A DNA stretch of 64,000 nt from Microcella alkalica (GTDB lineage Bacteria; Actinomycetota; Actinomycetes; Actinomycetales; Microbacteriaceae): positions 620,001-684,000 of the forward strand of contig NZ_JABUKC010000001.1 of assembly GCF_014595885.1 (NCBI RefSeq), written 5' to 3'. Below, piece by piece: positions 3-61,348 of this stretch (positions are counted from its first letter, which is position 1; every line of letters begins with the position of its first letter). The notes beneath the pieces were generated by a model. It searched no databases, had not been told where the DNA came from, and saw only the letters and a program-made list of their open reading frames with translations. Both the position numbers and the translations under genes were made by a program.

Positions 3-668
3 GTCGCCGTCGTGCTCGACGACGCCAGCGCTCCGGCCCTCGCGAGCGACATCGCCCAGTGGGCGAACCCGCGCACGCTCGGGCACGCGCTCGGCGATCG
101 CGATGCGGGGCTCGCCGTCGAGGCGCTCGGCATCGCGAACTGGCACGCCGCCCACGCCTTCTCGCCGCTCAGCGGCGCCCCGACCGACCCGGCCCGCGGC
201 GGCTGGGTGCGCGTCGACCGCGAGACCGGTCGCGAGCTCTTCCCGCGCACCGACGCCGCCGTCATCGTGGCGGTGACCGATCCCGACGACCGGCTCGTGC
301 TCGGCTCGAACGCGCAGTGGGAGGCCAATCGCTTCTCGCTGCTCGCGGGCTTCGTCGAGCCGGGCGAGTCGCTCGAGGCCGCCGTCGTGCGCGAGGTGCG
401 CGAGGAGTCGGGGCTCACCGTCGTCGACCCGGTGTACGCCGGCTCGCAGCCGTGGCCGTTCCCGGCCTCGCTCATGCTCGGCTTCCGCGCCCGCCTCGAT
501 GCGGATGCTCCGCAGGAGCTGCGCCCCGACGGCGCCGAGATCCTCGACCTGCGGTGGTTCAGCCGCACCGAGCTCGCCGCCTCGCTCGACGAGATCAGCC
601 TGCCAGGGCGCACCTCGATCGCCCGCGCCCTCATCGAGGACTGGTTCGGGGGCCCGATCGACGCATGA
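3..668 (+). CDS. nudC: NADH pyrophosphatase NudC, 5' partial
   Basis: C-terminal two thirds of a Nudix hydrolase of the NudC type, which cleaves NADH and removes NAD caps from RNA. The frame is open to the window edge, so the N-terminus lies outside. The Nudix box is intact (GFVEPGESLEAA, then REVREESG) and is followed by the NudC hallmark SQPWPFP. In most NudC proteins a four-cysteine zinc ribbon precedes the Nudix fold. The corresponding stretch here reads HAFSPLSGAPT and all four cysteines are missing. The stop codon overlaps the next start (ATGA at 665-668), so translation is probably coupled to the helicase gene, an arrangement also known from mycobacteria. Confidence 0.9.
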   Translation, partial: VAVVLDDASAPALASDIAQWANPRTLGHALGDRDAGLAVEALGIANWHAAHAFSPLSGAPTDPARGGWVRVDRETGRELFPRTDAAVIVAVTDPDDRLVLGSNAQWEANRFSLLAGFVEPGESLEAAVVREVREESGLTVVDPVYAGSQPWPFPASLMLGFRARLDADAPQELRPDGAEILDLRWFSRTELAASLDEISLPGRTSIARALIEDWFGGPIDA

Positions 669-2410
669 GCGGCACCGACCCCGATCGGCTGCTCGCGCAG
701 CTCGACGAGCAGCAGCGCGTCGTCGCCGAGAGCCTGCTGGGCCCGGTGTGCGTGCTCGCCGGCGCGGGCACGGGCAAGACCCGCGCGATCACGCACCGCA
801 TCGCCTACGGCGTCGCGACCGGGGCCTACGACCCGAAGCGCGTCATGGCGCTGACCTTCACGACGCGCGCGGCCGGTGAGCTCGTCGGCCGGCTGCGGGC
901 GCTCGGGGCCGAGGGCGTCTCGGCCCGCACCTTCCACTCCGCGGCGCTGCGGCAGCTGCACTACTTCTGGCCGACCGTCGTCGGCGGCGCCCCGCCGCGC
1001 GTGCTCGACGGCAAGGGACCGCTGCTCGGCCAGGCGGCCTCGACGCTCAGGCTCGGCCTCGACACCGCCGCGCTGCGCGACGCGGCCGCCGAGATCGAGT
1101 GGCGCAAGGTGCAGAAGCTCTCGCTCGACGACTACGCCCGCGCGGCGGAGAGCCGCACGATGCCGGCGAAGCTGCCGGTCTCGGCGATGGTCGACCTGCA
1201 CCGGCAGTACGAGGCCATCAAGGACGAGCGGCGGCAGATCGACTTCGAGGACGTGCTGCTGGCGATGGCGGGGATGCTCGAGGTCGAGCCGCGCGTCGCC
1301 GAGCAGGTGCGCGAGCAGTACCGCTTCTTCGTCGTCGACGAGTACCAGGACGTCTCGCCCCTGCAGCACGACCTGCTGACGCTGTGGCTCGGCGGCCGGC
1401 GCGAGCTGTGCGTCGTCGGCGACGCCTCGCAGACCATCTACTCGTTCGCGGGGGCCTCGAGCGACTACCTCGTGCGCTTCGGCAGCGAGTACCCGGAGGC
1501 GACGGTCGTGCGCCTGGAGGACAACTACCGCTCGACCGAGCAGATCGTGACGCTCGCCAACCGGCTCATGCGCGGCCGGCCGGGCGCCCTGACGCTGCGC
1601 GCGGCCGCCGCCGAGGGCGGGCCCGCTCCCAGCGTCACGGCGCACGCCGACGACGCGGCTGAGGCATCCGCCGTCGCCGAATCGATCGCGCGCCGCATCG
1701 CCGACGGTGCGGCGCCCGAGTCGATCGCGGTGCTGTTCCGCATCAACACGCAGTCGATCGCGCTCGAGGCGGCGCTGCGGCGCGCGGGCGTGCCCGTGCT
1801 GACGCGCGCGAGCAGCCGCTACTTCGACCAGCCGGAAGTGCGCCAGGCCATCATGCTGCTGCGCGGCGCGGCGATCTCGATCGGCGACGAGCCGCTGTTC
1901 AAGAGCGTCAGCGACGTGCTGCGCGGGCTCGGCTGGCGGCAGGATCCACCGGAGGGCGCGGGGGCCGAGCGCGCCCGCTGGGAGAGCCTGACCGCTCTGC
2001 TCGGCCTCGCGGAGGAGGCGCCCGCGGGCACGACCCTCGCCGAGTTCGTGCGCGAGCTGCAGCGCCGCGCCGAGCAGCAGCACGCGCCCGCCCGCTCGGC
2101 CGTCACCCTGGCGACACTGCACGCGGCCAAGGGCCTCGAGTGGGAGACCGTCTACATCGTCGGTCTCAGCGAGGGCACCGTGCCGATCACCTTCGCGTCG
2201 AGCCTCGAGGCGATCGACGAGGAGCGCCGGCTGTTCTACGTCGGCATCACGCGCGCGCGGCGCTCGCTCGAGCTGTCGTGGGCGCAGCGACCCAGCGCGA
2301 GTCGCGCCGAGCGCGCGCCGAGCCGGTTCCTCGACGAGGTGCGCGCGCCGGGGCAGCCGCCCGTCGGCGTGACGGGCGGGGTCAGCCGGCGAGGGGCTGC
2401 ACGGCGCTGA
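665..2410 (+). CDS. uvrD2: UvrD/Rep-family ATP-dependent DNA helicase, UvrD2-like and short
   Basis: A 581-residue superfamily 1A 3'-5' helicase acting in DNA repair. The Walker A motif GAGTGKT is at residues 33-39. Motif II is DEYQD near residue 225, motif III is GDASQTIYSF, the Q/R-rich motif is LEDNYRST, motif V is TLHAAKGLEW and motif VI is LFYVGITRARR near residue 523. ATG 665 is chosen because it overlaps the nudC stop; the longer in-frame extension upstream is simply nudC read in another frame. Position next to nudC points to UvrD2. Mycobacterial UvrD2 continues with a tetracysteine and an HRDC domain. This protein ends about 50 residues after motif VI and has neither. Its 3' end overlaps the convergent next gene by 29 bp. 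Confidence 0.92.
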   Translation: MSGTDPDRLLAQLDEQQRVVAESLLGPVCVLAGAGTGKTRAITHRIAYGVATGAYDPKRVMALTFTTRAAGELVGRLRALGAEGVSARTFHSAALRQLHYFWPTVVGGAPPRVLDGKGPLLGQAASTLRLGLDTAALRDAAAEIEWRKVQKLSLDDYARAAESRTMPAKLPVSAMVDLHRQYEAIKDERRQIDFEDVLLAMAGMLEVEPRVAEQVREQYRFFVVDEYQDVSPLQHDLLTLWLGGRRELCVVGDASQTIYSFAGASSDYLVRFGSEYPEATVVRLEDNYRSTEQIVTLANRLMRGRPGALTLRAAAAEGGPAPSVTAHADDAAEASAVAESIARRIADGAAPESIAVLFRINTQSIALEAALRRAGVPVLTRASSRYFDQPEVRQAIMLLRGAAISIGDEPLFKSVSDVLRGLGWRQDPPEGAGAERARWESLTALLGLAEEAPAGTTLAEFVRELQRRAEQQHAPARSAVTLATLHAAKGLEWETVYIVGLSEGTVPITFASSLEAIDEERRLFYVGITRARRSLELSWAQRPSASRAERAPSRFLDEVRAPGQPPVGVTGGVSRRGAARR

Positions 2411-3182
2411 GCCCCAGCCCGAGGCAGCCGCAGCGGTCGGAGGGCGCCCACGACTGGCGGTGCCGGCGACCCGTGACGGCGTCGATGCGCACGCTCAGGG
2501 TGTCGCGCTCGCGCAGGATGCGCAGCGCCTCGATCGCCGCCTCCGTCGCCAGCAGGGGAGCATCGGCGTGCGCGGGCATGCCCCACAGCTGCGCCTCAAT
2601 CGCCGGCCACGAGGGGTCGGCGGCCGTGCGCGCCTGATCGACGCAGGCGAGGCACGCCGTCTCGCCCGGCTCGACACGCGGGCCCACCGTCGCCGACTGC
2701 TCGCCGATGATGATCGGCACGTGCACGATGTCGCGGCGCAGCCAGGCGAGGTGCTCGGTCGGGTCGATGACGTGGTGGCTCACGAGCACGGCGGCGTCGA
2801 TCGAGGCGTCGACGACGCCCGCGCCGTGGGCGGCGGCGATGACGGGATGCCCGGCATCGGCCACGACGCGCGCGATACGCCCCGCGGCGGGCACCGCTCC
2901 GATCACAGCGACGCGCCGCACCGCGGGAGCGGGCAGCGGCGCGAACGCGGGCTCGAGAAGCGCCAGCAGCTCGGCGACGCGAGCGGGGGTGACGCCGAGC
3001 GTGGAGGCGAGCATGCCGACGCCGGTGCGCGGCACGCCCGTGGCGAGCGCGGCGATGAGCCGGGCATCCCCGTCATCGACCGGATCGATGACGGCGACGA
3101 CGGGGTCGACGCCGATCTGCATGCTCGTCGGCGTGCGCCAGACGAGCGGGCGACGGGGGTCGATGCGCAGAACCATGCGCAC
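2382..3182 (-). CDS. ThiF/E1-like, TOMM cyclodehydratase-type leader-binding protein
   Basis: A 266-residue protein of the type annotated as ThiF-family or TOMM precursor leader peptide-binding protein. The N-terminus (about 1-80, WRTPTSMQIG onward) resembles the winged-helix peptide-binding part of cyclodehydratases. Residues 85-110 (VRRVAVIGAVPAAGRIARV) look like a degenerate Rossmann nucleotide fold. Near the C-terminus are cysteine pairs TACLACVDQ and DRCGCLG, as in zinc-binding E1-like proteins. No precursor peptide, YcaO or dehydrogenase lies nearby, so a role in azole formation is unlikely. A homologue sits in the equivalent place in mycobacteria, and the function there is not established as far as I know. 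It probably forms a unit with the metalloprotease gene upstream of it on the same strand. Confidence 0.65.
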   Translation of the reverse strand: MRMVLRIDPRRPLVWRTPTSMQIGVDPVVAVIDPVDDGDARLIAALATGVPRTGVGMLASTLGVTPARVAELLALLEPAFAPLPAPAVRRVAVIGAVPAAGRIARVVADAGHPVIAAAHGAGVVDASIDAAVLVSHHVIDPTEHLAWLRRDIVHVPIIIGEQSATVGPRVEPGETACLACVDQARTAADPSWPAIEAQLWGMPAHADAPLLATEAAIEALRILRERDTLSVRIDAVTGRRHRQSWAPSDRCGCLGLGLSAVQPLAG

Positions 3183-3210: not shown

Positions 3211-4578
3211 CTAGTTGCTCACAGGGGGGCCGTCGCCCTCGACGGGCCGGTCGCCCTCGTCGGCGAGCAGCTCGCTGAGCGCCTGGTCGAAGGCGTCGTC
3301 GTCGACGGGGCCCGCCTGCAGGGTCGCGATGACGCGCGAGGGGTCGTCGATGTCGTCGCCGGTCGGCAGCAGGTCGGGGTGATCCCACAGCCCGTCGCGC
3401 GCCTCGGTGCCGACCGCGTCGGTGACGGCCCGCCAGAACGCGGCGGCCTCGCGCAGTCGGCGCGGGCGCAGCTCGAGCCCGACGAGGGTCGCGAAGGCAG
3501 ACTCGGCCGGGCCGCCCGCGGCGCGACGGCGCCGCACAGTCTCGGCGACGGCGTCGGCGCGCGGGAGGCGAGCCGTCGCATCCGCCGTCACGACGTCGAC
3601 CCAACCCTCGATGAGGGCGAGCGTCGTCTCGAGGCGGCCGAGCGCGGCGAGCTGCGCCTCGGTCTTCGGCGGGATGAGCGCGCCGCTGGAGAGGATCTCG
3701 CGCAGGCTCTCCGGGTCGGCGGGGTCGAAGTCCTCCGCGACCGACTCGATGCGCGTGGCGTCGATGCTGAGCCCGCGGGCGTAGTCGGTGATGGCGCTGA
3801 TGACGTGGGCGCGCAGCCACCGCGCGTGCCGGAACAGCCGCGCGTGAGCGAGCTCGCGCACCGACAGGTAGAGGTGCACCTGGTCGGCCGAAATGTCGAG
3901 GCCCTGCCCGAAGGCGGCCACGTTCTGCGGCAGCAGCGCCGCCTGCACATCGTGGTCGTCGCGGCCCGGCAGCAGGGGGATGCCCACGTCGCCGCCCGAG
4001 ACGACCTCGGCGGCGAGCTGGCCGACGACGTGGCCGAGCTGGATGGAGAACAGCGTGCCGCCGAGCGAGCGCATGATGCCGCTCGCGTCGCCCATCATCG
4101 CCTTCAGCTGCTCGGGCACCTGAGTGTCGAGCGCCTCGGTGAGGGCGTCGGCGATCGAGCGCGCGACGGGCTCGGCGAGACTGCTCCAGATCGGCAGGGT
4201 GCGGCGCGCCCAGTCGGCGCGCGTCAGCAGCGCCGGCTCGGAGGTCAGCTGGGTGATCGCGGTCGCCTCGTCGAGCCACAGCGCGGCCACGTGCAGCGCC
4301 TGGCGCAGCGCCTCGACCTCGGCATCGGTGGGCGTGAGGGCGCCGGTCGCGGCGATGCGCCCCGCCTCCTCGCGCGCGAGCTTCTCGTCGATGCCGTCGA
4401 CGGGCGCACTCATCGCCCGCTGCAGCTGACCCATGAGCCGCGCGATCATCGCCGGATCCGCCGGCAGGCCTGCGGCGCCCGCGAGCTTCGCGGGGTCGAT
4501 GTCGCCCTCACCGGCCAGGAAGCGGCGCATCATCTCGCGGAAGTCGTCCTCGGGCCCGCCGAGGGAATCGTCAGCCAT
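3211..4578 (-). CDS. Zinc-dependent metalloprotease homologue (DUF2342 / putative hydrolase family)
   Basis: A 455-residue actinobacterial protein of the putative hydrolase family related to DUF2342 zincins. The N-terminus (MADDSLGG) is acidic. The family core is recognisable: RTLPIWSSLAEPVARSIADA, then LLPQNVAAFGQGLDI, then VRELAHARLFRHARWLR at the helix where zincins carry their metal site. I see ELAH-RLF but no canonical HExxH, so protease activity is an inference from the family name only. The ATG at 4578 is supported by a -10-like TAGCGT seven bases upstream (leaderless) and by the family N-terminus. The gene is divergent from the YlbL-type protease, a pairing conserved in Actinobacteria. 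Confidence 0.75.
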   Translation of the reverse strand: MADDSLGGPEDDFREMMRRFLAGEGDIDPAKLAGAAGLPADPAMIARLMGQLQRAMSAPVDGIDEKLAREEAGRIAATGALTPTDAEVEALRQALHVAALWLDEATAITQLTSEPALLTRADWARRTLPIWSSLAEPVARSIADALTEALDTQVPEQLKAMMGDASGIMRSLGGTLFSIQLGHVVGQLAAEVVSGGDVGIPLLPGRDDHDVQAALLPQNVAAFGQGLDISADQVHLYLSVRELAHARLFRHARWLRAHVISAITDYARGLSIDATRIESVAEDFDPADPESLREILSSGALIPPKTEAQLAALGRLETTLALIEGWVDVVTADATARLPRADAVAETVRRRRAAGGPAESAFATLVGLELRPRRLREAAAFWRAVTDAVGTEARDGLWDHPDLLPTGDDIDDPSRVIATLQAGPVDDDAFDQALSELLADEGDRPVEGDGPPVSN

Positions 4579-4585
4579 GCGCTTT

Positions 4586-4591: not shown

Positions 4592-4753
4592 ACGCCGCGC
4601 CCGCGCTCGTCGAGCGGGTTTCGCCCTAGGCTGACGAGCGGTGCGCCCGCGGCGGGCCCGCGCCGGGCATCCGCCCCGCGCCCCGATCGCAGCCTCCTCG
4701 CCCGCCCGCCCCGACCTGACCACGCCGCCCGGCCGGCGACGGAAGGACAGCCC

Positions 4754-5863
4754 GTGTCGCTCTTCACCGACGGCGTCGACGTCGACCACGAGTCGGCGCG
4801 CTCGCGCAGCCGCCGCGTCGGCTGGCTGCTGCTCGCGGTGACGCTGTTCGGCGTGCTCGGCATGGCCGTGCTGCCCTCGCCGTACGTCATCGAGCGCCCC
4901 GGCCCCGTCTTCGACACCCTCGGCTCGGTCACGGTCGACGGCGAGGAGGTGCCGCTCATCACGATCCCCGACGAGCCGACCTACCCGACCGAGGGCTCGC
5001 TGAGCCTGCTGACCGTGAACGTGCTCGGCAACCCGGAGACGCGGCCGTCGTGGTTCGAGGTCGCGCGCGCGTGGCTCGACCCGCAGCAGTCGGTGGTGCC
5101 GCTGGAGTCGGTGTTCCCGCCCGGCGTCTCGACGGAGGATCGCCGCGAGCAGAGCCGCGTCGACATGGAGAACTCGCAGCAGGAGGCCATCGCGGCGGCG
5201 CTGCGGGCCATCGGCGAGCCGTACGAGAGCGTGCTGTACGTCGTCGAGCCGCAGGAGGGCGGCGCCTCCGAGGGCATCCTCGAGGCTGACGACGTCATCG
5301 TCTCGGTGAACGGCGAGGCGGTGCGGGATGTCACGGCGCTGCGCGCCGCGATCGCGGAGAACGGCACGACGACCCCCGTGTCGCTCGGCATCGAGCGCGA
5401 CGGGCAGGAGCGCACGGTCGAGGTCACCCCGCGCTTCAGCGAGGGCCCCGACGCCGTGCCGGTCATCGGCATCCTCGTGGCGGGCGAGTACGAGTTCCCG
5501 TTCGACGTCGACATCGAGCTGTCGAACGTCGGCGGCCCGAGCGCGGGCATGATGTTCGCGCTCGGCATCATCGACAAGCTCACCCCCGGCTCGCTCGCCG
5601 GCGGCGCCGAGGTCGCGGGCACGGGCACGATCGCGGCCGACGGCACGGTCGGCCCCATCGGCGGCATCGTGCAGAAGATGTACGGCGCGATCGACGCCGG
5701 CGCCGAGGTGTTCCTGTCGCCGAGCGAGAACTGCGGCGAGCTCGCCGGCAGCATCCCCGACGAGCTCGAGGTGTTCCGCGTCGCGACGCTCGACGACGCG
5801 ATCGAGGTGTTGCAGACGGTCGCCGACGAGGGCGATCTGAGCGCGCTGCCGCGCTGCGAGTGA
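4754..5863 (+). CDS. YlbL-type PDZ domain / Lon-like S16 serine protease
   Basis: A 369-residue membrane-anchored protease. A single membrane segment lies at about residues 23-41 (GWLLLAVTLFGVLGMAVL), followed by the characteristic YVIERPGPVFDTLG. A PDZ domain follows at about 165-235 (GILEADDVIVSVNGEAV). The C-terminal S16 domain has the catalytic Ser263 in GGPSAGMMFA and Lys308 in IVQKMYGA, the Ser-Lys dyad of Lon. GTG 4754 is chosen because GGAAGGAC lies just upstream and the frame before it lacks family similarity. A TAGGCT hexamer at 4627-4632 is a possible promoter with a leader of about 115 nt. The family is known to degrade membrane or envelope proteins, but the substrate here is unknown. 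Confidence 0.88.
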   Translation: MSLFTDGVDVDHESARSRSRRVGWLLLAVTLFGVLGMAVLPSPYVIERPGPVFDTLGSVTVDGEEVPLITIPDEPTYPTEGSLSLLTVNVLGNPETRPSWFEVARAWLDPQQSVVPLESVFPPGVSTEDRREQSRVDMENSQQEAIAAALRAIGEPYESVLYVVEPQEGGASEGILEADDVIVSVNGEAVRDVTALRAAIAENGTTTPVSLGIERDGQERTVEVTPRFSEGPDAVPVIGILVAGEYEFPFDVDIELSNVGGPSAGMMFALGIIDKLTPGSLAGGAEVAGTGTIAADGTVGPIGGIVQKMYGAIDAGAEVFLSPSENCGELAGSIPDELEVFRVATLDDAIEVLQTVADEGDLSALPRCE

Positions 5864-5975: not shown

Positions 5976-8894
5976 GTGACGTCCACCGCAACGCCGCCCG
6001 CCAACCGAAGCCGGGCGACTCTCGCGATCTCGGCCGGCATCCTCGCCGTGCTCGTCGTGCTGTTCTTCGTCTTCGCGAACTTCTACACCGACGTGCTGTG
6101 GTTCGACCAGCTGGGCTACCTGCCGGTGCTGACGACGCAGTGGTTCGCGACCGCGGGGATGTTCCTGGTCGGCTTCCTGGGCATGTTCATCCCGGTCTAC
6201 GCGAGCCTGCAGATCGCCTACCGCCTGCGCCCCGTCTACGCCAAGCTCTCCAGCCAGCTCGACCGCTACCAGGAGGTCGTCGAGCCGCTGCGCCGCGTGG
6301 CGATGCTCGGCATCCCGGCGGTGCTGGGCCTCTTCGCGGGCGTCGCGGCCGCGAGCCGCTGGCCGGTCGTGCTGCAGTGGTTCAACCGCACGCCGTTCGG
6401 CGAGACCGACCCGCAGTTCGGCCTCGACATCTCGTTCTACATCTTCGAGCTGCCGTTCTGGCGCGGCGTCGTAGCGTTCGCTTCCGGCGCCGTGCTGCTC
6501 TCGGCGATCGCCGCGGTCGCGACGAGCTACCTCTACGGGGCGATCCGCTTCACGGGCCGCGAGGTGCGCATCAGCCGCACCGCGCGCATCCAGCTCGCCG
6601 TCACGGCGGGCGTCTACATCGCGCTGCAGGCAGTCTCGATCTGGCTCGACCAGTACGCGGCGCTCGTGCAGCCCAGCGACGGGTTCCTCGCCGCCGGTGC
6701 CGGCTACACCGAGGTCTTCGCGACCATCCCCGGCCGGCAGATCCTCGCCGGCATCGCCGCGCTCATCGCGGTGCTCTTCATCATCACGGCCATCATCGGC
6801 CGCTGGCGCATCTCGATCGTCGGCACCGCGCTGCTCATCGTCTCGGGGCTGCTCATCGGCAGCGTCTACCCGTGGATCGTGCAGCGCTTCCAGGTCGAGC
6901 CGAGCGCGCGGTCGCTCGAGGCGCCCTACATCGAGCGCAACATCGAGGCCACGCGCGACGCCTACGGCATCACCGGCATCGAGGAGGTGCCCTACGCCGC
7001 GACTGTGACGGCGGAGGAGGGGGCGCTGCGGGAGGACGCGGAGACGACCGCGAACATCCGCATCATCGATCCCGCGCTCGTCACCGACGCCTTCGCGCAG
7101 CTGGAGCAGTTCCGGCCGTACTACGGCTTCCCTCCCTACCTCGACGTCGACCGCTACGAGATCGACGGGCAGACGCAGGACACGGTGATCTCCGTCCGCG
7201 AGCTCAACCCCAACGAGCAGACGGAGGAGAGCTGGTACAACTCGCGCATCGTCTTCACGCACGGCTACGGCGTCGTCGCGGCCGCGGGGAACGAGCGCGC
7301 GGCTGACGGGCAGCCCGTCTTCCTCGAGTCGGGCATCCCGGCCAGCGGGCCGCTCTCGGAGGCGGTCGGCGAGTACGAGCCGCGCATCTACTTCGGCGAG
7401 ACCTCGCCCGAGTACTCGATCGTCGGCGCGCCGGAGGGTGCGCCCGCGCTCGAGCTCGACTACCCCTCGGAGGGCGGCGACGAGAACGACGCCTCGGGCA
7501 ACCAGACCTACACCTTCACCGGCGACGGCGGCCCGGCGCTCGACAACCCGTTCAAGAAGCTGCTGTACGCGATCAAGTTCCAGTCGGAGCAGATCTTCCT
7601 CTCCGACGCCGTGAACGAGGAGTCGCAGATCCTCTACGACCGCACGCCGCTCGAGCGCGTGCAGAAGGTCGCGCCGTACCTCACGCTCGACCGCGACCCG
7701 TACCCGGCGATCGTCGATGGGCGCATCCAGTGGATCGTCGACGGCTACACGACCTCGGCGAGCTACCCGTACTCGACGTCGGTCGCGCTGTCGGCCGCGA
7801 TCGCGGACACGTACACGCCGGCGCCGACCTTCCCGATCGACGACATCAACTACATCCGCAACTCGGTCAAGGCGACCGTCGACGCCTACGACGGCTCGGT
7901 GACGCTCTACGCGTGGGACACGGAGGACCCGCTGCTGCAGACGTGGCAGAAGATCTTCCCGTCGACGCTGCAGCCGATGGAGGAGATGGGGCAGGAGCTG
8001 CTCGATCACGTGCGCTACCCCGCCGACCTGTTCAAGGTGCAGCGCGACATCCTCGGCGAATATCACGTGACCGACCCCGGCTCGTTCTTCTCGCGCGACG
8101 ACGAGTGGGTGACGCCGAACGACCCGGCAGCGCCGGGCGGCCTCGAGGCGCTGCAGCCGCCGTACTACCTGACGATGCAGATGCCCGGCTCCGAGGCCCC
8201 CGCGTTCACGCTGTACTCGACGTTCATCCCGGCCTCGGCGGGCGGCAACAGCCGCAACGTGCTCTACGGCTACCTCGCGGCGAACGCCGACGCGGGCGAC
8301 GACTACGGCAAGCTCACACTGCTCACGCTGCCGCGCCAGACGACCGTGCCGGGCCCCGGCCAGGTGCAGAACCAGTTCGACTCGAACGCGACGGTCGCCC
8401 AGCAGCTCAACCTGCTGCGTCAGGGCGAGACCGAGGTCATCAGCGGCAACCTGCTGACCCTGCCCGTCGGCGGCGGCCTGCTCTACGTGCAGCCGGTCTA
8501 CGTGCAGTCGACCGGTGGAACGAGCTACCCGCTGCTGCGCAAGGTGCTCGTCGCGTTCGGCAACGAGGTCGCCTTCGAGGACACGCTCGACCAGGCGCTC
8601 GACAGCCTGTTCGGCGGCGAGTCCGGTGCCGAGGCCGGTGACGGCGACGTCGACCCGGTCGACCCCGAGCAGCCCGACCCCGAGCAGCCGACCGACCCGG
8701 AGGCGCCGACCGAGCCCGAGCAGCCCGGTGACGCGACCTTCGAGGCGGCGCTGCAGGAGGCCCGCGAGGCGCTGCTGGCCCGCGAGGCCGCGTACGCCGC
8801 GAATGACCTCGTCGCGGCGGCGGAGGCCGACGAGCGCCTGCAGGCCGCGCTCGAGCGCCTCTTCGCGCTCAGCGAGCAGCAGCCGGAGGAATAG
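5976..8894 (+). CDS. UPF0182 family large membrane protein
   Basis: A 972-residue member of the UPF0182 (COG1615) family, widespread in Actinobacteria and of unknown function. About seven membrane helices occupy the first 320 residues, beginning with TLAISAGILAVLVVLFFVF. A large extracytoplasmic domain follows, with conserved-looking blocks such as RPYYGFPPYLDVDRY and TFIPASAGGNSRNVLYGYL. The C-terminus is a low-complexity Asp/Pro/Glu run (VDPEQPDPEQPTDPEAP) followed by a short helix rich in Ala and Glu. The start is GTG 5976, preceded by GGGAGACC. A TAGGCT hexamer at 5935-5940 could be its promoter. The family sits next to ylbL in mycobacteria too. Confidence 0.9.
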   Translation: MTSTATPPANRSRATLAISAGILAVLVVLFFVFANFYTDVLWFDQLGYLPVLTTQWFATAGMFLVGFLGMFIPVYASLQIAYRLRPVYAKLSSQLDRYQEVVEPLRRVAMLGIPAVLGLFAGVAAASRWPVVLQWFNRTPFGETDPQFGLDISFYIFELPFWRGVVAFASGAVLLSAIAAVATSYLYGAIRFTGREVRISRTARIQLAVTAGVYIALQAVSIWLDQYAALVQPSDGFLAAGAGYTEVFATIPGRQILAGIAALIAVLFIITAIIGRWRISIVGTALLIVSGLLIGSVYPWIVQRFQVEPSARSLEAPYIERNIEATRDAYGITGIEEVPYAATVTAEEGALREDAETTANIRIIDPALVTDAFAQLEQFRPYYGFPPYLDVDRYEIDGQTQDTVISVRELNPNEQTEESWYNSRIVFTHGYGVVAAAGNERAADGQPVFLESGIPASGPLSEAVGEYEPRIYFGETSPEYSIVGAPEGAPALELDYPSEGGDENDASGNQTYTFTGDGGPALDNPFKKLLYAIKFQSEQIFLSDAVNEESQILYDRTPLERVQKVAPYLTLDRDPYPAIVDGRIQWIVDGYTTSASYPYSTSVALSAAIADTYTPAPTFPIDDINYIRNSVKATVDAYDGSVTLYAWDTEDPLLQTWQKIFPSTLQPMEEMGQELLDHVRYPADLFKVQRDILGEYHVTDPGSFFSRDDEWVTPNDPAAPGGLEALQPPYYLTMQMPGSEAPAFTLYSTFIPASAGGNSRNVLYGYLAANADAGDDYGKLTLLTLPRQTTVPGPGQVQNQFDSNATVAQQLNLLRQGETEVISGNLLTLPVGGGLLYVQPVYVQSTGGTSYPLLRKVLVAFGNEVAFEDTLDQALDSLFGGESGAEAGDGDVDPVDPEQPDPEQPTDPEAPTEPEQPGDATFEAALQEAREALLAREAAYAANDLVAAAEADERLQAALERLFALSEQQPEE

Positions 8895-8900
8895 GGGGCC

Positions 8901-9770
8901 ATGGGAGCGGGCGTCGAGCCCGAGTGGGTCGCGCTCAACCGCGCCCACTGGGACGAGAAGGTGCCCGTGCACCTGGCGAGCGAGTTCTACGACCTCGCGC
9001 CCCTGCGGCGCGGCGAGGGGCGGCTCTACCCCATCGAGGAGGCGGAGCTGCCCCGCATCGCCCCGCACGGCTGGGAGGGCCTGCGGGTGCTGCACCTGCA
9101 GTGCCACTTCGGCGCCGACTCGCTCGTGCTCGCGCAGCGCGGCGCCGAGGTCGTCGGACTCGACTTCTCGATGCCGGCCATCCGCGCCGCGCGCGAGCTG
9201 GCCGACGAGCTCGGGCTCGCCGACCGCACGCGATTCGTGTGCGCCGACCTCTACGACGCGCGTCACCGGCTGCCCGACCCGGAGGGCTTCGACGTCGTCT
9301 TCACGACGTGGGGCACGATCGGCTGGCTGCCCGACACCGCGGAGTGGGCGCGCATCATCGCGTGGTTCCTGAAGCCCGGCGGGCGGCTGTACTTCGCCGA
9401 CGGGCATCCGACCGCGTTCGTGTTCGACGAGAGCGACGGCACGGTGCCGGTGCGCGGGGTGCCGTACCCGGTGCCGACCTACGGCTACTTTCGCGCCGAG
9501 GGACTCTCGCTCGACGACGATGCCGACTACGCCGACCCCGAGGCGACGCTCGCGAACTCGCGCACCGTCGAGTGGATGCACCCCCTCGGCCGCACCATCA
9601 CCGACCTCATCGACGCCGGGCTCTCGATCGACTTCGTGCACGAGCACGACGCCGTGCCGTGGCAGATCTTCTCGGCCGCCGAGCGCGGCGATGACGGGCT
9701 GTGGCGCATGCCGGGTGAGCCGCTGCTGCCCCTCGGCATGAGCCTGGGGGCGACGCGTCGCCTCGACTGA
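8901..9770 (+). CDS. Class I SAM-dependent methyltransferase
   Basis: A 289-residue methyltransferase with a seven-stranded Rossmann fold. The SAM-binding motif I is VLHLQCHFGADSLVLAQRGA near residue 60, followed by VVGLDFS with the acidic residue at the end of strand 2. Motif IV-like FDVVFTTWGTIGWLPD follows. The substrate is not evident; the best generic match in my memory is to uncharacterised actinobacterial methyltransferases. It starts 6 bp after the UPF0182 stop, with GGGGGCC before the ATG, so it is likely the last gene of that transcript. Confidence 0.85.
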   Translation: MGAGVEPEWVALNRAHWDEKVPVHLASEFYDLAPLRRGEGRLYPIEEAELPRIAPHGWEGLRVLHLQCHFGADSLVLAQRGAEVVGLDFSMPAIRAARELADELGLADRTRFVCADLYDARHRLPDPEGFDVVFTTWGTIGWLPDTAEWARIIAWFLKPGGRLYFADGHPTAFVFDESDGTVPVRGVPYPVPTYGYFRAEGLSLDDDADYADPEATLANSRTVEWMHPLGRTITDLIDAGLSIDFVHEHDAVPWQIFSAAERGDDGLWRMPGEPLLPLGMSLGATRRLD

Positions 9771-11122: not shown

Positions 11123-11152
11123 TTCGACGGATGCTCTCGCCCCTGGTATCGT
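11123..11152 (+). promoter_or_regulatory. Promoter of the initiator tRNA gene
   Basis: A TTCGAC -35-like element at 11123-11128 and a TATCGT -10-like element at 11147-11152 are separated by 18 bases. The predicted transcript start lies about six bases before the tRNA. Confidence 0.5.
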
Positions 11153-28837: not shown

Positions 28838-29710
<873 letters not shown>

Positions 29711-52867: not shown

Positions 52868-53761
52868 GTGCTCGCCGCCCTGCTCATCGCGGGCGGCGCC
52901 GTCGCGCACGCCGCCTGGAACCTCGTGCTCAAGGCGACGCCCGCCGGCGGCGTGCGGTTCCTGGCGCTCACGGTCGTCGTCTCCGTCGCGGTGCTCGCCC
53001 CGCTCGGCGCTGCGCCGCTCGCCGCTGCCGTCGTCGAGCGGCCCTGGCTCGTCGCACCGCTGCTGCTGAGCGGAGCCCTGCACAGCGGCTACTTCCTGCT
53101 GCTGCAGCGCGCGTACCGGGCGGCCGACGTCTCCGTCGTATACCCGGCGGCCCGGGGCACCGGCCCGCTGCTGAGCGTCGTCGCGGCCGTCGTCGTGCTG
53201 GGTGAGCGTCCCGGCGCGCTCGCCCTCGTCGGTGCCGCGGTCGTCGTCACCGGCGTCGTCGTCATCGGTCTCGTGGGCGCCCGCGCGCCGGGCGCGCCGC
53301 GCAGCGGCGATGCGGCGGATGCCCGTGGCCGGCCCCGCCTCGCCCGCGGCGTCGCGCTCGGCGCGGCCGTCGGCGTCGTCATCGCCGGCTACACGCTCCT
53401 GGACGCGGTGGCGGTGACGCGGCTCGGGCTCGAGCCGGTCGCCTGGTTCTGGGGCAGTCTCGTGGTGCAGCTGCTCGTGCTGGGGCCGTGGCTGGCGGCG
53501 AGGCCGCGATCGGCGGCGGCGACCGCCCGCCGCCACCTGCCTGCGGTGCTCGCGGTGGGCATCCTCTCGCCGCTCGCCTACGTGCTCGTGCTCGCAGCCT
53601 ACGAGCTGGCGCCGGTCGCGATCGTCGCTCCGGCGCGGGAGGCGAGCGTCGTGCTCGTCGCCCTCGCCGGCTGGCTGCTGCTGCGCGAGCCGCACCCGGC
53701 GCAGCGCCTCGTCGGCAGCGCGATCGTGCTCGCCGGGGTGGCGCTGCTCGCGGTCGGGTGA
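52868..53761 (+). CDS. EamA/DMT-type transporter
   Basis: A 297-residue protein with ten membrane helices in two EamA repeats. The first repeat starts at [20 protein letters not shown], and the family motif [20 protein letters not shown] ends it. The second starts at [20 protein letters not shown] and ends in [20 protein letters not shown]. The substrate is unknown; metabolite export is usual for the family. GTG 52868 lies 21 bases after pyrH. It interrupts the otherwise common pyrH-frr adjacency. Confidence 0.85.
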
Positions 53762-53817: not shown

Positions 53818-54372
53818 GTGATCACCGATGTTCTCGCCGAAGCCACCGACAAGATGACGAAGGCCGTCGAGGTCGCGAAGGAGGACTACGCGACCGTGCG
53901 CACGGGCCGCGCGAACCCGCAGCTCTTCCAGAAGATCATGGTCGACTACTACGGCACGCCGACGCCGCTCGGCCAGCTCGCGAGCCTGCAGAACCAGGAT
54001 GCCCGCACCCTCGTCGTGACGCCCTACGACAAGAGCGCCCTGAAGGAGATCGAGAAGGCGATCGTCAACTTCCCGAACCTCGGCGCGAACCCGAGCAACG
54101 ACGGCACGATCATCCGCGTGACGATGCCCGAGCTCACGGAGGACCGCCGCAAGGAGTACGTGAAGATCGTCAAGGGCAAGGCGGAGGACGCCAAGGTCGC
54201 GATCCGCAACATTCGCCGCAAGGCGAAGGAGGACCTGGACAAGCTCAAGAGCGAGGTCGGCGACGACGAGGTCGCGCGCGCCGAGAAGGAGCTCGAGGCC
54301 CTCACCAAGCGCCACACCGATGCGGTCGACGAGGCGCTGAAGAAGAAGGAAGCCGAGCTGCTCGAGGTCTAG
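53818..54372 (+). CDS. frr: Ribosome recycling factor
   Basis: A 184-residue factor that splits post-termination ribosomes with EF-G. Signatures are [54 protein letters not shown] and [22 protein letters not shown] 53818 follows GAAGGAG with normal spacing. A TACACT hexamer lies about 30 bases upstream and is a likely own promoter. Confidence 0.97.
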
Positions 54373-55389
54373 ATGACCGACTCCTCTTCGGGCGCTCCCG
54401 ACGCCGCGAGCCCCTCGACCCCCGCCGCCCCCGCGCCCGCGGGAGCGGCCCGCCGTCGTCGCGGCGCCGTCGCGCGCGCCGACGTCGAGGCGAAGATCCA
54501 CGACGTCGAGGTGGCGCTCGCCGACCTCGAGGCGCGAGCCCGCGAGATGGATGCTCGCATCGAGGCTCGTGCCGGCCGCAACCTGCCCAAGGCCATCTTC
54601 TTCGGCCTCGTGCTGGGGCTGTCGCTGCTGTTCAGCCTCATCGTCGTCAAAGAGCTGTTCATGGTCTTCGGCGCGGCGCTCATGGTCTTCACCGTCTACG
54701 AGCTCGCGAGCGCGCTGCGGTTCGCGGGCCGCGACATCCCGCGCATCCCCCTCGTGATCGCCTCCCTCGCGGTCGTGCCCTCCGCCTTCTATCTCGGGGC
54801 CGAGGGGCTGTGGTGGTCGTTCCTGGCGGGCGCGGTGTTCGTGAGCCTGTGGCGCCTGGCGGAGTCGGTGCGGCCCTCGATGCGCCGACCGGGCGTCTCG
54901 CTGCCGGTCGACCTGGGTGCCGGCGTCTTCGTGCTCGCGTACGTGGCGCTGCTGGGCGGCTTCGCGATCGTCATGACGGCGGAGGAGGGCGGCCAGTGGT
55001 GGACCCTGGCGTACCTCATCGTCGTCATCTCGATCGACACGGGCGCCTACGTCTCGGGCCTGTCGTTCGGCAAGCACCCGATGGCGCCGCGCATCAGCCC
55101 CAAGAAGACGTGGGAGGGCTTCGCTGGCTCGGTGGTCGCCGCCCTCGTCGCGGGCGTGCTGCTGGCGTGGCTCATGCTTGGCGAGGAGTGGTGGGTCGGC
55201 GTGGTGCTCGGTCTCGCGCTCGTGGGCACCGCCACGCTCGGCGACCTCACCGAGTCGCTCATCAAGCGCGACCTCGGCATCAAGGACATCTCCACGTGGC
55301 TGCCGGGCCACGGCGGCTTCCTCGACCGGCTGGATTCGATCCTGCCGTCGACGATCGTCGCGTACGTGCTGTTCACGCTCCTGGCATGA
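54373..55389 (+). CDS. cdsA: Phosphatidate cytidylyltransferase
   Basis: A 338-residue membrane enzyme that makes CDP-diacylglycerol, the precursor of phospholipids. An N-terminal 70-residue cytoplasmic coiled region is followed by about eight helices. The family signature is SLIKRDLGIKDISTWLPGHG followed by GFLDRLDSI. ATG 54373 directly follows the frr stop with no gap, so expression depends on frr translation or on read-through reinitiation. Confidence 0.94.
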   Translation: MTDSSSGAPDAASPSTPAAPAPAGAARRRRGAVARADVEAKIHDVEVALADLEARAREMDARIEARAGRNLPKAIFFGLVLGLSLLFSLIVVKELFMVFGAALMVFTVYELASALRFAGRDIPRIPLVIASLAVVPSAFYLGAEGLWWSFLAGAVFVSLWRLAESVRPSMRRPGVSLPVDLGAGVFVLAYVALLGGFAIVMTAEEGGQWWTLAYLIVVISIDTGAYVSGLSFGKHPMAPRISPKKTWEGFAGSVVAALVAGVLLAWLMLGEEWWVGVVLGLALVGTATLGDLTESLIKRDLGIKDISTWLPGHGGFLDRLDSILPSTIVAYVLFTLLA

Positions 55390-55424: not shown

Positions 55425-55973
55425 GTGAGCGCGACCTTCCCGATGGCCCGCAAGGGCAAGCCGGGCTACGACGTCGACGAGGTCGAGACCTTCTTGGCGG
55501 ATGCCCGGCGCGCGTACGCCACCCTCGACGGCGGCGGCCTCACGAGCGACGACATCCGCCACACGGCGTTCCGCGTGGTGCGCCGCGAGGGCTACTCGGT
55601 GCGGCACGTGGATGCTGCGCTCGAGCGCCTCGAGGAGGCCTTCGCCGCGCGCGAGCGCGACCGCGCGATCGCCGAGCGCGGCGAGGAGGCGTTCTACCGC
55701 GAGACGCGCGAGATCGCCCAGGAGATCGTCGACCGGCTCGCGAGGCCCGAGGGCCGCCGCTTCCGCCGGGCGAGCGCCCTCGCCCGCGGCTACCACCCGG
55801 CTGACGTCGACGCGTTCACCGCGCGGGTGTCGCGGTACTTCCAGGATGGCGACCCGCTCACGGTCGACGCGGTGCGCACGATCGCCTTCCGCAGCCGCTT
55901 CGGCGGGTACGACGAGACCCAGGTCGACGTGGTGCTCGACGCGGTCATCCGGGTGATGCTGGCCGTCCGCTGA
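55425..55973 (+). CDS. DivIVA-repeat domain protein
   Basis: A 182-residue protein made of two DivIVA-like membrane-binding repeats. The first is ATFPMARKGKPGYDVDEVET, then FLADARRAY, and the second is FRRASALARGYHPADVDAFT, then ARVSRYFQDG. Each is followed by a related segment (DDIRHTAFRVVRREGYSVRH and DAVRTIAFRSRFGGYDETQ). There is no long coiled coil, unlike Wag31/DivIVA. GTG 55425 is favoured by the -10 spacing and by the family N-terminus; ATG 55386 would add 13 residues. Confidence 0.78.
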   Translation: MSATFPMARKGKPGYDVDEVETFLADARRAYATLDGGGLTSDDIRHTAFRVVRREGYSVRHVDAALERLEEAFAARERDRAIAERGEEAFYRETREIAQEIVDRLARPEGRRFRRASALARGYHPADVDAFTARVSRYFQDGDPLTVDAVRTIAFRSRFGGYDETQVDVVLDAVIRVMLAVR

Positions 55974-58847: not shown

Positions 58848-58924
58848 GCGGGCGACCTCTCGTCAGGGGGCGGATGCTCGCGCGCCTCCGTCGCGGATCG
58901 CGCGCCGAGAGGCACCCGGCCTGC

Positions 58925-61348
58925 TCACTCGTCGCTGATCGAGCCCGAGATCCTCTCTGCCTGCGACAGTACCCCGCGCAGCCCCTCGAGGTAGCCCGCC
59001 ACGGCGTCGCGCTCGACGCGCAGACGGGCCAGGCGCTCCTCGGCCTCGGAGACGAGGGCGCTCGTGCGCTGCTCCGCCTCGGCGAGCATGGCTGCGGCGC
59101 GCTGCTCGGCGTTGGTGAGCACCTCGCGCGCGGTGGCGTCGGAGCTCGCGCGCAGCTCGTCGGCCTCGGCCCGGGCCTCGCGCGTGAGGCGCTCCGCCTC
59201 GGCGCGGGCCTCCGCCGCGGCCTGCTGCGCCGCAGAGAGCTGCGCGGTGGCCTCGTCGAGGTACTTCTGGGTCTGCAGGCTGGCCTCCTGCTGGCGGCCG
59301 AGGTAGTCGCGCTCGGCCTCGTCGCGGCGGGCCGCGAGCTCGACGTCGAGGTCGACGCGCGCCTGCTCGGCGGCGCGCTCGAGGGTCGCGCGCTGCTCGT
59401 CGATCTCGCGGGCGAGGGTGGCCCGTGCCTTCGCGGCCTCGTCGGCGAGGCGGCGCTCCTGGTCGCTCTCGGCCTTGGCGAGCCGCGCGCGGCGCGCGGT
59501 CTCGTCGGCTTCGAGCGCGGCGAGGCGCTCGGCGATCTCGGCGTCGAGGGCGCCGCGGGCCGCGGCCTCGGCGCGCTCGGCCTCGCCGCGGCGCTCGGCG
59601 AGCTCGGCCTCGAGCGCGGCGCGCGTCGTGGTGCGCTCGCGCTCGAGCTCGGACCGCGCGGCCGCGAGCTCCTGCGACAGGGCGCTGCGCGCGGTCGTCA
59701 GCTCGCGCTCGAGGTCCGCGCGGGTGGTGCTGCGCTCGCGCTCGAGCGCGGCCGCGGCCTCGCTCGAGCGCGACTCGAGGGCGCTGCGCTGCTCGTCGAG
59801 CGCGGCCTCCACCTCGGTGCGCTGCTGGGTCGCGTACGCATCGGCGGATGCTCGCACGTCGGCCGCGTAGGCGTCGGTCTCGGCGCGCAGGTCGAAGGCG
59901 TAGCTCTCGGCCGCGGTGCGCGTCTCGAGCGCGGCCGCCTCGGCGGCGCGACGGAGCTCGTCGGTCTCGGCCTTCGCGGTGGCGCGCAGCTCGTCGACCT
60001 CCGCCTTCGCGGTCGCGCGCAGGGCGAGCGCGTCGGCCTTCGCCTCGCCGCGCAGCTGCTCGGCGTCGGCCGCGGCGGCAGCGCGGGCCTCGGCGGCGGC
60101 GGCGTCGGCCTCCTGCCGGGTCGTGCGCGCGTACGCGTCGGCGGCGTCGCGCGCCTGGGTGGCATCGGTCTCGGCGGTCGTCCGCAGCTCGGCCGCGCGA
60201 GCCTCGGCCTCGGCACGCACGCTCGCGCCGTGCGCGTCGGCGGCGGAGCGGATCTCGACGGAGTACGCGTCGGCGGCGGTGCGAGTGCGCTCGGCGTAGG
60301 CGTCGATCTCGCCGCGCACCTGCTCGGCGTAGGCGTCGGCGTCGCCGCGCACCTGAGCGACGTAGCGGTCGGCCTCGGAGCGCGCCGCCTCGAGCTCGGC
60401 GCGGAGGTCGGCGCGCGCCGTCGTCAGCTCCGCCTCCAGCGCCGCGCGCGAGCTCTCCTGCAGCTCGTCGACGGTGCGGCGGGTCGTCGACTCGAGCGAC
60501 TCGACGGCGGCGCGACGCTGCGCCTCCTCCGCCTCCCACTCGGATCGTGCGCGGGCCAGCTCGCTCTCGGTGCTCGCCCGTGCGGTCGTGAGCTCGTGCT
60601 CGAGCTCGGCGCGCCCCGCCTCGATGTCGGCGGCGAGCTGGGCGCGCAGGGTGGCGCTCTCGCTCTCGAAGCGCGCGCGCTCCTCCGCGGTCTCGCGGGC
60701 GAGCTCGGCCGCGGCCGCGCGGGCCTCGGCGGCCTCGCGGTCGGCGACGACGCGCAGCTCGGCGGCGTCGCGCTCGGCCTCGGCGCGCAGCGCGGCGGCC
60801 TCGCGCTTGGCCATGGCGCGCGCCTCGGCGGCCTCGGTGGCGACGGCACCGCGGATCGTCGCGGCCTCGCGCGTCGCCTCCTGCACGAGCTGGTCGGCGT
60901 CGTCGCGGGCGCGCTCGAGGGTCTCCTCGGCGGCGCGCGTGGCGTTCTCCATGGTCGCGGCGGCGCGCTGCGCCGCCTCGGCCACGAGCTGCTCGACGCG
61001 CTCGGCGGCCTCGGCCTGCAGCCGCTCGACGTCGGCCTGCGCGGCGGTGCGCACGCGCTCGGCGTCGATGTCGGCCTGGCTGATGAGTCGGGTCGACTGC
61101 TCCTCGGCGAGCCGCAGCGTCTGCTCGAGCTTGGTGCCCAGCCCGGCGTAGGTGGGGCGACCGACCTCGTCGAGCTCGGCCTGGAGGTCGTCGACGACGG
61201 CCTGGAGGCGCTTGAGCTCCTTCGCCGTCTCGGCACGGTCGCTGTTGGCCTTGATGACGTCGCGCCGCAGCTCCTGGATCGCCTTGTCGACCTCGTCACG
61301 CTTGTAGCCGCGCATCTCGGTGCCGAAGTCGCTGTCGATCGCTGCCAC
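58925..61348 (-). CDS. Large hendecad coiled-coil protein, Scy/DivIVA-like
   Basis: An 807-residue protein, almost entirely coiled coil. The N-terminus (TEMRGYKRDEVDKAIQELRR) matches the DivIVA membrane-targeting segment. From about residue 75 to 760 the sequence is Ala/Glu/Arg-rich; in the middle (about 335-560) an 11-residue period is plain, as in ADAYAEQVRGE, IDAYAERTRTA, ADAYSVEIRSA. A heptad-type stretch follows. The C-terminal LVSEAEERLARLRVERDAVA closes it. Scy of Streptomyces combines the same features and organises polar growth. GTG 61348 follows AGGGAGACC. Confidence 0.8.
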   Translation of the reverse strand: MAAIDSDFGTEMRGYKRDEVDKAIQELRRDVIKANSDRAETAKELKRLQAVVDDLQAELDEVGRPTYAGLGTKLEQTLRLAEEQSTRLISQADIDAERVRTAAQADVERLQAEAAERVEQLVAEAAQRAAATMENATRAAEETLERARDDADQLVQEATREAATIRGAVATEAAEARAMAKREAAALRAEAERDAAELRVVADREAAEARAAAAELARETAEERARFESESATLRAQLAADIEAGRAELEHELTTARASTESELARARSEWEAEEAQRRAAVESLESTTRRTVDELQESSRAALEAELTTARADLRAELEAARSEADRYVAQVRGDADAYAEQVRGEIDAYAERTRTAADAYSVEIRSAADAHGASVRAEAEARAAELRTTAETDATQARDAADAYARTTRQEADAAAAEARAAAAADAEQLRGEAKADALALRATAKAEVDELRATAKAETDELRRAAEAAALETRTAAESYAFDLRAETDAYAADVRASADAYATQQRTEVEAALDEQRSALESRSSEAAAALERERSTTRADLERELTTARSALSQELAAARSELERERTTTRAALEAELAERRGEAERAEAAARGALDAEIAERLAALEADETARRARLAKAESDQERRLADEAAKARATLAREIDEQRATLERAAEQARVDLDVELAARRDEAERDYLGRQQEASLQTQKYLDEATAQLSAAQQAAAEARAEAERLTREARAEADELRASSDATAREVLTNAEQRAAAMLAEAEQRTSALVSEAEERLARLRVERDAVAGYLEGLRGVLSQAERISGSISDE

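Follow-up and report, generated by a model that had tools for sequence, protein, structure and literature searches.

The stretch of DNA dealt with here, 64,000 nucleotides of the Microcella alkalica genome (contig NZ_JABUKC010000001.1, positions 620,001 to 684,000; hereafter, the window), is strewn with copies of the eight-base word GGATGCYC (Y being C or T), which we read, with a probability of roughly two in three, as a DNA uptake sequence (DUS), i.e., a self mark of the genus Microcella comparable to the DUS or uptake signal sequence (USS) of known transformable bacteria, uptake itself being what we infer from the sequence pattern. Thousands of copies without strand polarity, the inverted arrangement of close pairs, dialects built around a common core and a patchy presence within the family together favour an uptake word. 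Among the roles that an earlier note on this stretch had offered for a recurrent CGGATGCYC, uptake seems to be the one that best accommodates the balanced strands, the preference for intergenic DNA, the inverted pairs, the dialects and the competence genes.

The word is by no means a peculiarity of the window, as the whole genome of 2,493,753 bases holds 2,415 copies (1216 + 1199), or about one per kb, vs. 181 (82 + 99) of the same pattern read backwards, and the longer CGGATGCYC stands at 546 + 582 vs. 49 + 53. The backwards-read pattern contains TAG and is, therefore, a weak control, so that the argument rests on shuffles instead. These were mostly run on a 464-kb sample of the genome (the window plus twenty 20-kb stretches, 21 stretches in all, with gene models from a simple purpose-written script), in which GGATGCCC (285) and GGATGCTC (206) lead the 8-mers under a fourth-order Markov model. 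The most over-represented 7-mer of the sample under the same kind of model is another one, AGGCGCT/AGCGCCT (298 vs. 132).

That the constraint lies on DNA rather than on protein, as the earlier note had supposed, is agreed upon by three separate approaches. Synonymous-codon shuffling of the sampled genes yielded 114 coding copies of GGATGCYC (maximum of 140 in 100 shuffles) where 410 are observed, and a shuffle that also preserves codon junctions expected only 97.5 (maximum of 114 in 40 shuffles), codon-pair preference being thereby covered as well. The excess is largest in the frames that require rare codons, e.g., 31 words vs. 0.17 by codon shuffle in the GGA GCA TCC frame and 120 vs. 11.4 in the GAT GCY frame. 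The third approach, a synonymous-flip test, compares the choice of a third codon base when the other seven bases of the word match with the choice made when one of them is mismatched, and all eight positions shift towards the word in at least one frame: the word base is found in 114/122 matched vs. 109/310 mismatched cases at position 1, 43/70 vs. 140/727 at position 2, 31/45 vs. 27/184 at position 3, 120/127 vs. 95/280 at position 4 (GAT), 156/163 vs. 335/372 at position 5, 31/31 vs. 68/99 at position 6, 120/129 vs. 109/246 at position 7 and 64/73 vs. 244/464 at position 8. At positions 2 and 6 no shift was seen in the remaining frames (156/159 vs. 391/400 and 8/8 vs. 6/6) because the word base is nearly fixed there already. 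Sites one synonymous step away from the word are close to saturation, reaching 93% at position 1 and 94% at position 4 where the frame is GAT GCY. The pooled flip odds ratio is 9.4 in M. alkalica vs. 0.96 in a set of five word-poor genomes; permuted words gave a finite ratio in 199 of 200 cases, with a median of 0.95, the highest being 6.1 (for a word overlapping the complement of GGATGCYC itself) and the next 2.9. An origin at the level of protein or codon usage was rejected on these tests. Of the two outcomes by which the earlier note's reading would have fallen, counts within the reach of codon-pair-aware shuffles and a lack of over-representation in the rest of the genome, neither was observed.

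The same shifts recur in 15 other Microcella genomes, position 7 barely moving in one frame (37/65 vs. 79/145), and all 26 genomes of the genus that were searched are word-rich, with 1,098–2,728 copies of GGATGCYC each. The word is also conserved beyond synonymous expectation among these relatives: in 24 ortholog groups compared across the 15 other genomes, the exact word was kept at 68 of 117 identical-peptide sites, vs. 28.3 by per-codon retention (2.4 times; as the species share ancestry, the true error is larger than the standard deviation of 4.3), and permuted words were kept at 427/876 vs. 334.7 and 126/218 vs. 92.8 (1.3–1.4 times).

Within the window, GGATGCYC occurs 63 times. A C precedes it at 46% of sites and other flank preferences are weak, so the leading C is merely preferred and the true unit is the 8-mer; the recurrent word of the earlier note was thus real, although one base too long. 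Its list of 14 positions for CGGATGCTC proved correct and complete (14 vs. 1.76 expected; maximum of 6 in 100 dinucleotide shuffles), and that for CGGATGCCC gave 16 of 20, omitting those starting at 20623, 23939, 29781 and 31988. Both 9-mers pooled make 34 sites vs. a mean of 3.38 (maximum of 8 in 100 shuffles), and the genes of the window hold 27 of the 9-mers vs. a mean of 3.9 (maximum of 10) and 56 of the 8-mers vs. a mean of 14.8 (maximum of 27; 500 synonymous-codon shuffles in both cases). The disfavoured spelling GGA-GCA-TCC that had been pointed out is indeed found at 19227, 22985, 28023, 29271 and 40799, and the Asp-Ala frame does spell the word as GAT-GCT or GAT-GCC. Both inverted pairs described at gene ends (33762-33777 and 34581-34606) are real as well and fold as hairpins of -15.6 and -22 kcal/mol (z of -2.7 and -2.5). 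The copies, each either lying within one of the 9-mers or matching as an 8-mer, are as follows:

503..510, +, GGATGCTC within 9-mer, sense in gene 3-668, GAT GCT
1272..1279, +, GGATGCTC, 8-mer match
2845..2852, +, GGATGCCC, 8-mer match
3062..3069, -, GGATGCCC, 8-mer match
3978..3985, +, GGATGCCC, 8-mer match
4665..4672, -, GGATGCCC within 9-mer, intergenic or gene edge
5272..5279, -, GGATGCCC, 8-mer match
7331..7338, -, GGATGCCC, 8-mer match
9402..9409, -, GGATGCCC within 9-mer
11129..11136, +, GGATGCTC within 9-mer, intergenic or gene edge
12048..12055, -, GGATGCCC within 9-mer
13055..13062, -, GGATGCCC, 8-mer match
14412..14419, -, GGATGCCC, 8-mer match
16178..16185, -, GGATGCTC within 9-mer
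17339..17346, +, GGATGCCC, 8-mer match
18377..18384, -, GGATGCCC within 9-mer
18809..18816, +, GGATGCTC, 8-mer match
19227..19234, +, GGATGCTC within 9-mer, gene reads GGA GCA TCC
20016..20023, -, GGATGCTC, 8-mer match
20331..20338, -, GGATGCCC, 8-mer match
20624..20631, +, GGATGCCC within 9-mer, newly listed
21001..21008, -, GGATGCTC, 8-mer match
21838..21845, +, GGATGCCC within 9-mer
22985..22992, +, GGATGCTC within 9-mer, gene reads GGA GCA TCC
23182..23189, -, GGATGCCC within 9-mer
23940..23947, +, GGATGCCC within 9-mer, newly listed
24023..24030, +, GGATGCCC, 8-mer match
27657..27664, +, GGATGCTC, 8-mer match
27796..27803, -, GGATGCTC, 8-mer match
28023..28030, -, GGATGCTC within 9-mer, gene reads GGA GCA TCC
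29271..29278, -, GGATGCTC within 9-mer, in ftsY-like gene (SRP54-type GTPase by Pfam), GGA GCA TCC
29617..29624, -, GGATGCCC, 8-mer match
29782..29789, +, GGATGCCC within 9-mer, newly listed
30027..30034, +, GGATGCCC, 8-mer match
30924..30931, -, GGATGCTC within 9-mer, in ffh (SRP54 by Pfam)
31358..31365, +, GGATGCTC, 8-mer match, in ffh (SRP54 by Pfam)
31989..31996, +, GGATGCCC within 9-mer, newly listed
33150..33157, -, GGATGCCC, 8-mer match
33762..33769, +, GGATGCCC, left half of inverted pair within the final codons of gene 32536-33786, hairpin
33770..33777, -, GGATGCCC, right half of inverted pair 33762-33777, hairpin by folding
34581..34588, -, GGATGCTC, left half of inverted pair spanning the stop codon of gene 33791-34582, hairpin
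34599..34606, +, GGATGCTC, right half of inverted pair 34581-34606, hairpin by folding
36421..36428, -, GGATGCCC within 9-mer
36865..36872, +, GGATGCTC, 8-mer match
40476..40483, +, GGATGCCC within 9-mer, in rnhB (Pfam)
40799..40806, -, GGATGCTC within 9-mer, in rnhB (Pfam), GGA GCA TCC
41421..41428, +, GGATGCTC within 9-mer, intergenic or gene edge
41638..41645, -, GGATGCCC within 9-mer
42257..42264, -, GGATGCCC within 9-mer, in comM
42408..42415, -, GGATGCCC, 8-mer match, in comM
43447..43454, -, GGATGCTC, 8-mer match, in dprA
45653..45660, -, GGATGCCC within 9-mer
46948..46955, -, GGATGCCC, 8-mer match
48109..48116, -, GGATGCCC, 8-mer match
49053..49060, +, GGATGCCC, 8-mer match
49991..49998, -, GGATGCCC within 9-mer, intergenic or gene edge
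53317..53324, +, GGATGCCC within 9-mer
53557..53564, -, GGATGCCC, 8-mer match
53997..54004, +, GGATGCCC, 8-mer match
54549..54556, +, GGATGCTC, 8-mer match
55499..55506, +, GGATGCCC within 9-mer
58872..58879, +, GGATGCTC within 9-mer, intergenic or gene edge
59846..59853, +, GGATGCTC within 9-mer, gene reads CGA GCA TCC

Over the larger sample, both strands carry the word evenly, at 232 vs. 259 copies, and no local polarity was seen over the 21 stretches (chi-square of 12.3 on 21 degrees of freedom; 464 kb, origin and terminus not mapped). Copies sense and antisense to genes are likewise alike in number (192 vs. 218), which argues against a signal acting in RNA. Density is higher between genes (1.44 per kb) than within them (0.99 per kb), at 1.81 per kb in convergent, 1.77 in divergent and 1.48 in tandem gaps, and 20 of the 23 neighbouring copies less than 60 bp apart are inverted. 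Inversion also prevails in 15 other genomes with a dialect word taken together, at 56 inverted vs. 35 direct pairs within 60 bp (p of 0.035) and 207 vs. 134 within 300 bp (p of 9e-5). In addition, the 5-kb surroundings of nine phage capsid genes contain 30 words, where 70.1 would be expected at host density, some of these surroundings taking in host flank.

Counts of GGATGCYC over 299 genomes of the family are patchy, some genera being high and others at about the level of the backwards control. Words with the core GGATGC and lineage-specific flanks are seen more widely: when the 8-mers of M. alkalica and of 28 further actinobacterial genomes, each of the latter sampled over some 60–80 kb, were ranked against codon shuffles, a GGATGC-containing word was among the nine most enriched in 17 of the 29. 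The following assignments are composite readings across several analyses:

GGATGCYC: Microcella alkalica, Subtercola
GGATGCKC-leaning (K being G or T): M. putealis (GGATGCGC 39 vs. 13.0, GGATGCTC 25 vs. 5.7, GGATGCCC 15 vs. 8.5)
(A)CGGATGCCG: Galbitalea, Mycetocola, Cryobacterium algoricola
AGCGGATGCCG: C. glaciale
CGGATGCC(G): Agromyces ramosus, Humibacter
CGGATGCG(C): Herbiconiux moechotypicola

No such word was among the top nine in 11 of the 29 (Naasia, Curtobacterium, Rathayibacter, Leifsonia SCN, Frigoribacterium, Rhodoluna, Planctomonas, Pseudoclavibacter, Arthrobacter silviterrae, Labedella and Kineococcus), even though GGATGC itself is still raised in Leifsonia (1.88 times) and Pseudoclavibacter (1.81 times), and the one remaining genome, Pedococcus, has a different word. 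The local GGATGC words of four other genomes gave flip odds ratios of 7.5 to 20.2, vs. 0.96 to 1.6 for the same words in five word-poor genomes. Position 7 also drifts within Microcella, GGATGCGC outnumbering each pyrimidine form in the 20-kb stretches of four genomes (G002, G003, G007 and G010), which is possibly a shift of dialect between species.

The word of Pedococcus bigeumensis, GGTATGCCG, occurs 712 + 719 times genome-wide vs. 0 + 5 backwards, although such totals alone leave a polarity by replichore possible. Within its family (Intrasporangiaceae by the NCBI label), 33 of 59 genomes hold at least 96 and up to 1,850 copies, the remaining 26 having 2 to 75. Samples of 121.5 kb from Pedococcus and 80 kb from a second genome of the family (G408) contain 74 GGTATGCC sites, of which 31 are intergenic, at intergenic shares of 13.7% and 10.7%, and all seven pairs less than 100 bp apart are inverted, with varied loops and mostly between genes; the two that were folded reached -44.1 and -43.9 kcal/mol (z of -7.0 and -6.1). 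The motif ATGCCG is common to GGTATGCCG and the start of the 12-base neisserial DUS, probably by chance.

As to the machinery, the genome has comEA (with SLBB and HHH_3 domains) and comEC, and a topA-linked Tad locus with T2SSE and T2SSF by Pfam, whose small TadE-like protein had no Pfam match; there is, besides, a cluster for a type IVa pilus and a second locus with a Tad ATPase. The Flp of the topA-linked locus resembles, in a by-eye comparison, that of the naturally transformable Micrococcus luteus. T2SSE ATPases were matched in 46 of 46 genomes (with up to 33 candidates scored in each, so that the numbers per genome are lower bounds). Two word-rich genomes, those of S. lobariae and H. gentiana, have a single match among those scored, the ATPase of the topA-linked Tad locus, as would be expected of a Tad partner, although word-poor genomes have this ATPase as well. 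That locus was found at 12 of 14 loci examined, the ATPases examined in Galbitalea and Pedococcus belonging to another Tad locus. A type IVa pilus as the required partner was rejected, since Subtercola, Herbiconiux, Humibacter and Agromyces ramosus, all word-rich, lack PilM and the word-poor Curtobacterium, Naasia and Labedella have it. The two genes that had been taken as a hint of uptake are indeed in the window:

41805..43337, +, comM-like gene (Mg-chelatase ChlI family; Pfam PF01078, PF13541, PF13335)
43337..44575, +, dprA (DNA_processg_A; Pfam PF02481)

Their presence alone is no evidence, however. The comM-like gene is of a kind tied to transformation; the best named matches to its product are Microbacteriaceae, among them Microcella putealis (72%) and two metagenome-assembled genomes (MAGs; 77%), and the query also matched the word-poor Curtobacterium, Rathayibacter and Naasia.

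If GGATGCYC is an uptake sequence, a surface competence machine would have a higher affinity for double-stranded DNA arriving with the word than for DNA lacking it. Over generations, near-matches would be turned into the word as the favoured fragments recombine, and copies would build up on either strand as far as the encoded proteins permit. The word would be read during uptake, presumably by ComEA or by one of the Tad pilus proteins Flp, TadE and TadF. Passages of PMC3630211 describe the neisserial DUS as present in thousands of copies, coding and intergenic, with inverted pairs forming stem-loops tied to terminators, and as having family-level dialects around a conserved core, some members of the Neisseriaceae being without an obvious word. 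The actinobacterial words resemble what those passages describe in their abundance, in being both coding and intergenic, in their core dialects and patchiness within a family and, not uniformly among the genomes, in inverted pairs that can fold as stem-loops. They differ in having a GGATGC or GGTATGCC core and belonging to another phylum, and in that the neisserial DUS is read by ComP on a type IV pilus, whereas here a Tad/Flp pilus with ComEA/ComEC would probably take that role; hairpins between genes are clear in the two Pedococcus-family genomes sampled and weaker in Microcella. The Pasteurellaceae USS also has an 8–9 base core at about one word per kb on both strands, much as GGATGCYC does, but has AT-rich flanking motifs in place of the weak flank preferences seen here.

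For Micrococcus luteus, natural transformation through a Flp/Tad pilus is described in parts of PMC4322843, PMC6370729 and PMC8467076, and the gene kinds named there (comEA, comEC, Flp/Tad) are those of the present genome, the Flp core being similar by eye. In three research papers on M. luteus (PMC12849477 among them), a search of the main text did not find the term “uptake sequence”, M. luteus lying outside the genome sample. Judged by titles and opening lines of abstracts, the open-licence literature, outside which most subscription journals and all bioRxiv preprints fall, yielded nothing that clearly deals with uptake sequences in actinobacteria. A wider claim, to which we lean only slightly, is that at least two actinobacterial families have uptake self-labels of their own (a GGATGC core with genus or species dialects in Microbacteriaceae; GGTATGCCGC in the Pedococcus family). 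On this view the reader would in both be ComEA or a competence pilus of the Tad/Flp type, in place of a type IVa pilus with a ComP-type pilin, and the words would have an origin independent of the proteobacterial DUS/USS. The requirement for an uptake word is called unique to Neisseria species and the Pasteurellaceae in a passage of PMC3630211; were the uptake reading true, sequence-selective uptake would not be peculiar to two proteobacterial groups or to type IVa pili, many Microbacteriaceae and Pedococcus relatives would be marked as naturally competent, the dialects would provide a map of DNA-exchange partners, and close relatives with and without the word would offer a direct and cheap test of how uptake words originate.

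Quite a few observations, however, weigh against an uptake sequence. The close pairs in Microcella are mostly inside genes and not between them, and inversion does not prevail everywhere (4 inverted vs. 9 direct pairs within 60 bp in H. moechotypicola and 4 vs. 5 in Homoserinibacter; within 300 bp, 11 vs. 18 in Homoserinibacter, 9 vs. 10 in Salinibacterium and 4 vs. 8 in H. oxytropis). Ten genomes that lack a clear dialect word have 5 inverted vs. 0 direct pairs within 60 bp (17 vs. 28 within 300 bp), so that close inversion alone is not specific. Coding words near phage capsids still number 21 vs. 11.0 by shuffle, an excess of about two times. The five dialect labels follow a ComM + DprA tree only loosely, though they are more clustered than chance (10 changes where the minimum is 4 and the shuffled mean 13.9, with as few in 1 of 200 shuffles, on a tree in which 11 of the 27 inner branches are unresolved). 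Nor does the machinery track the word: ComEC and the topA-linked Tad locus are also found in word-poor relatives, and PilM, in 25 of 46 genomes, shows no such correspondence either. ComEC, matched in 46 of 48 genomes including word-poor ones (both misses being MAGs) and in 56 of 59 of the Pedococcus family, is too near universal to discriminate, and the three genomes of that family lacking a match (G394, G398 and G399; completeness not stated) are all word-rich. The near-saturation of one-step synonymous sites may exceed the usual bias of uptake, and no report of natural transformation in Microbacteriaceae was found in the open-licence literature, with the same coverage as above, the family figuring in one of the papers returned only as a group enriched in a reactor.

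Of the other explanations, a mutational or codon-context artefact is largely refuted. It would have the word arise by C-to-T change at a CpG (turning GGACGCCC into GGATGCCC) or from codon-pair preference, and coding GGACGCCC is indeed depleted (16 vs. 131 by codon shuffle) where GGATGCCC is enriched (254 vs. 75), a pattern that may reflect conversion of this near-neighbour into the word. Deamination at position 4, which that depletion had suggested, was nevertheless rejected, as the pull is felt at all eight positions and a single-base mutation bias cannot explain the word; the excess also survives the junction-keeping shuffle, permuted words and word-poor relatives behave otherwise, and intergenic density exceeds coding density. 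Another near-neighbour, GGAGGCCC, is strongly depleted as well (25 vs. 117 in the same coding sample). Some other intracellular process that copies or selects the word, such as biased gene conversion by a site-specific nuclease or repair enzyme, might be suggested by how strong the drive at positions 1 and 4 appears to be, yet uptake is in keeping with the dialects, the inverted pairs and the competence genes and calls for no new mechanism, and such a process seems improbable; we know of no candidate enzyme for it. Just as improbable is a modification or self-defence mark (a methyltransferase target, or a protective signal without which DNA is attacked by a nuclease), for which an asymmetric 8-mer with one degenerate base would be suitable and which would likewise be scarcer in foreign DNA such as that around phage capsid genes, but restriction targets are usually avoided rather than accumulated.

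The alternatives that the earlier note had named, architecture-imparting words and Chi-like sites, are disfavoured by the lack of local polarity, which argues against Chi, against the FtsK-orienting polar sequences (KOPS) and against architecture-imparting sequences (AIMS) alike. A Chi-like signal, i.e., an 8-mer read by a RecBCD/AddAB/AdnAB-type enzyme and over-represented through directing the repair of chromosome breaks, is the least implausible of the competing explanations, unlikely as it is. Parts of PMC8022716 describe Chi as a strand-polarised octamer that is commoner in the core genome and differs among taxa, so the similar length, the over-representation and the scarcity of GGATGCYC near phage capsid genes all agree with it; the even strands of GGATGCYC and of the Pedococcus word do not, inverted close pairs and intergenic hairpins have no role in the Chi model, and the same source puts E. 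coli Chi at about one per 5 kb vs. one per kb here. A word organising the chromosome (KOPS or SpoIIIE recognition sequences (SRS), AIMS, or the site of a nucleoid protein) appears still less probable: it would be genome-wide, conserved and scarcer near phage capsid genes, as observed, but a core whose flanks vary by lineage, and which shows no excess in a number of genera within one family, is unlike an essential segregation motif. KOPS and AIMS work through strand bias, none of which is seen locally in 464 kb with the terminus not mapped; to the site of a nucleoid protein this last argument does not apply.

Several minor observations remain. The “ABC permease” for which GGA-GCA-TCC had been reported is probably gene 26945-28495, and that name is not borne out: its 516-aa protein has no Pfam match at 1e-5, and the gene adjoins the ftsY-like one. 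Outside the window, at ~738.5-747.7 kb of contig C1 of the same genome (L213, ~460-9700), a mobile element that carries genes for a serine recombinase (domains Resolvase, Recombinase and Zn_ribbon_recom) and an HK97-type capsid (PF05065) is flanked by pilus-like genes of the second Tad locus, and it may interrupt or regulate that pilus. Finally, in a Micrococcales MAG (L038), CTGACAAG occurs 10 times in 21.5 kb vs. 0.4 expected, apparently as a separate repeat.

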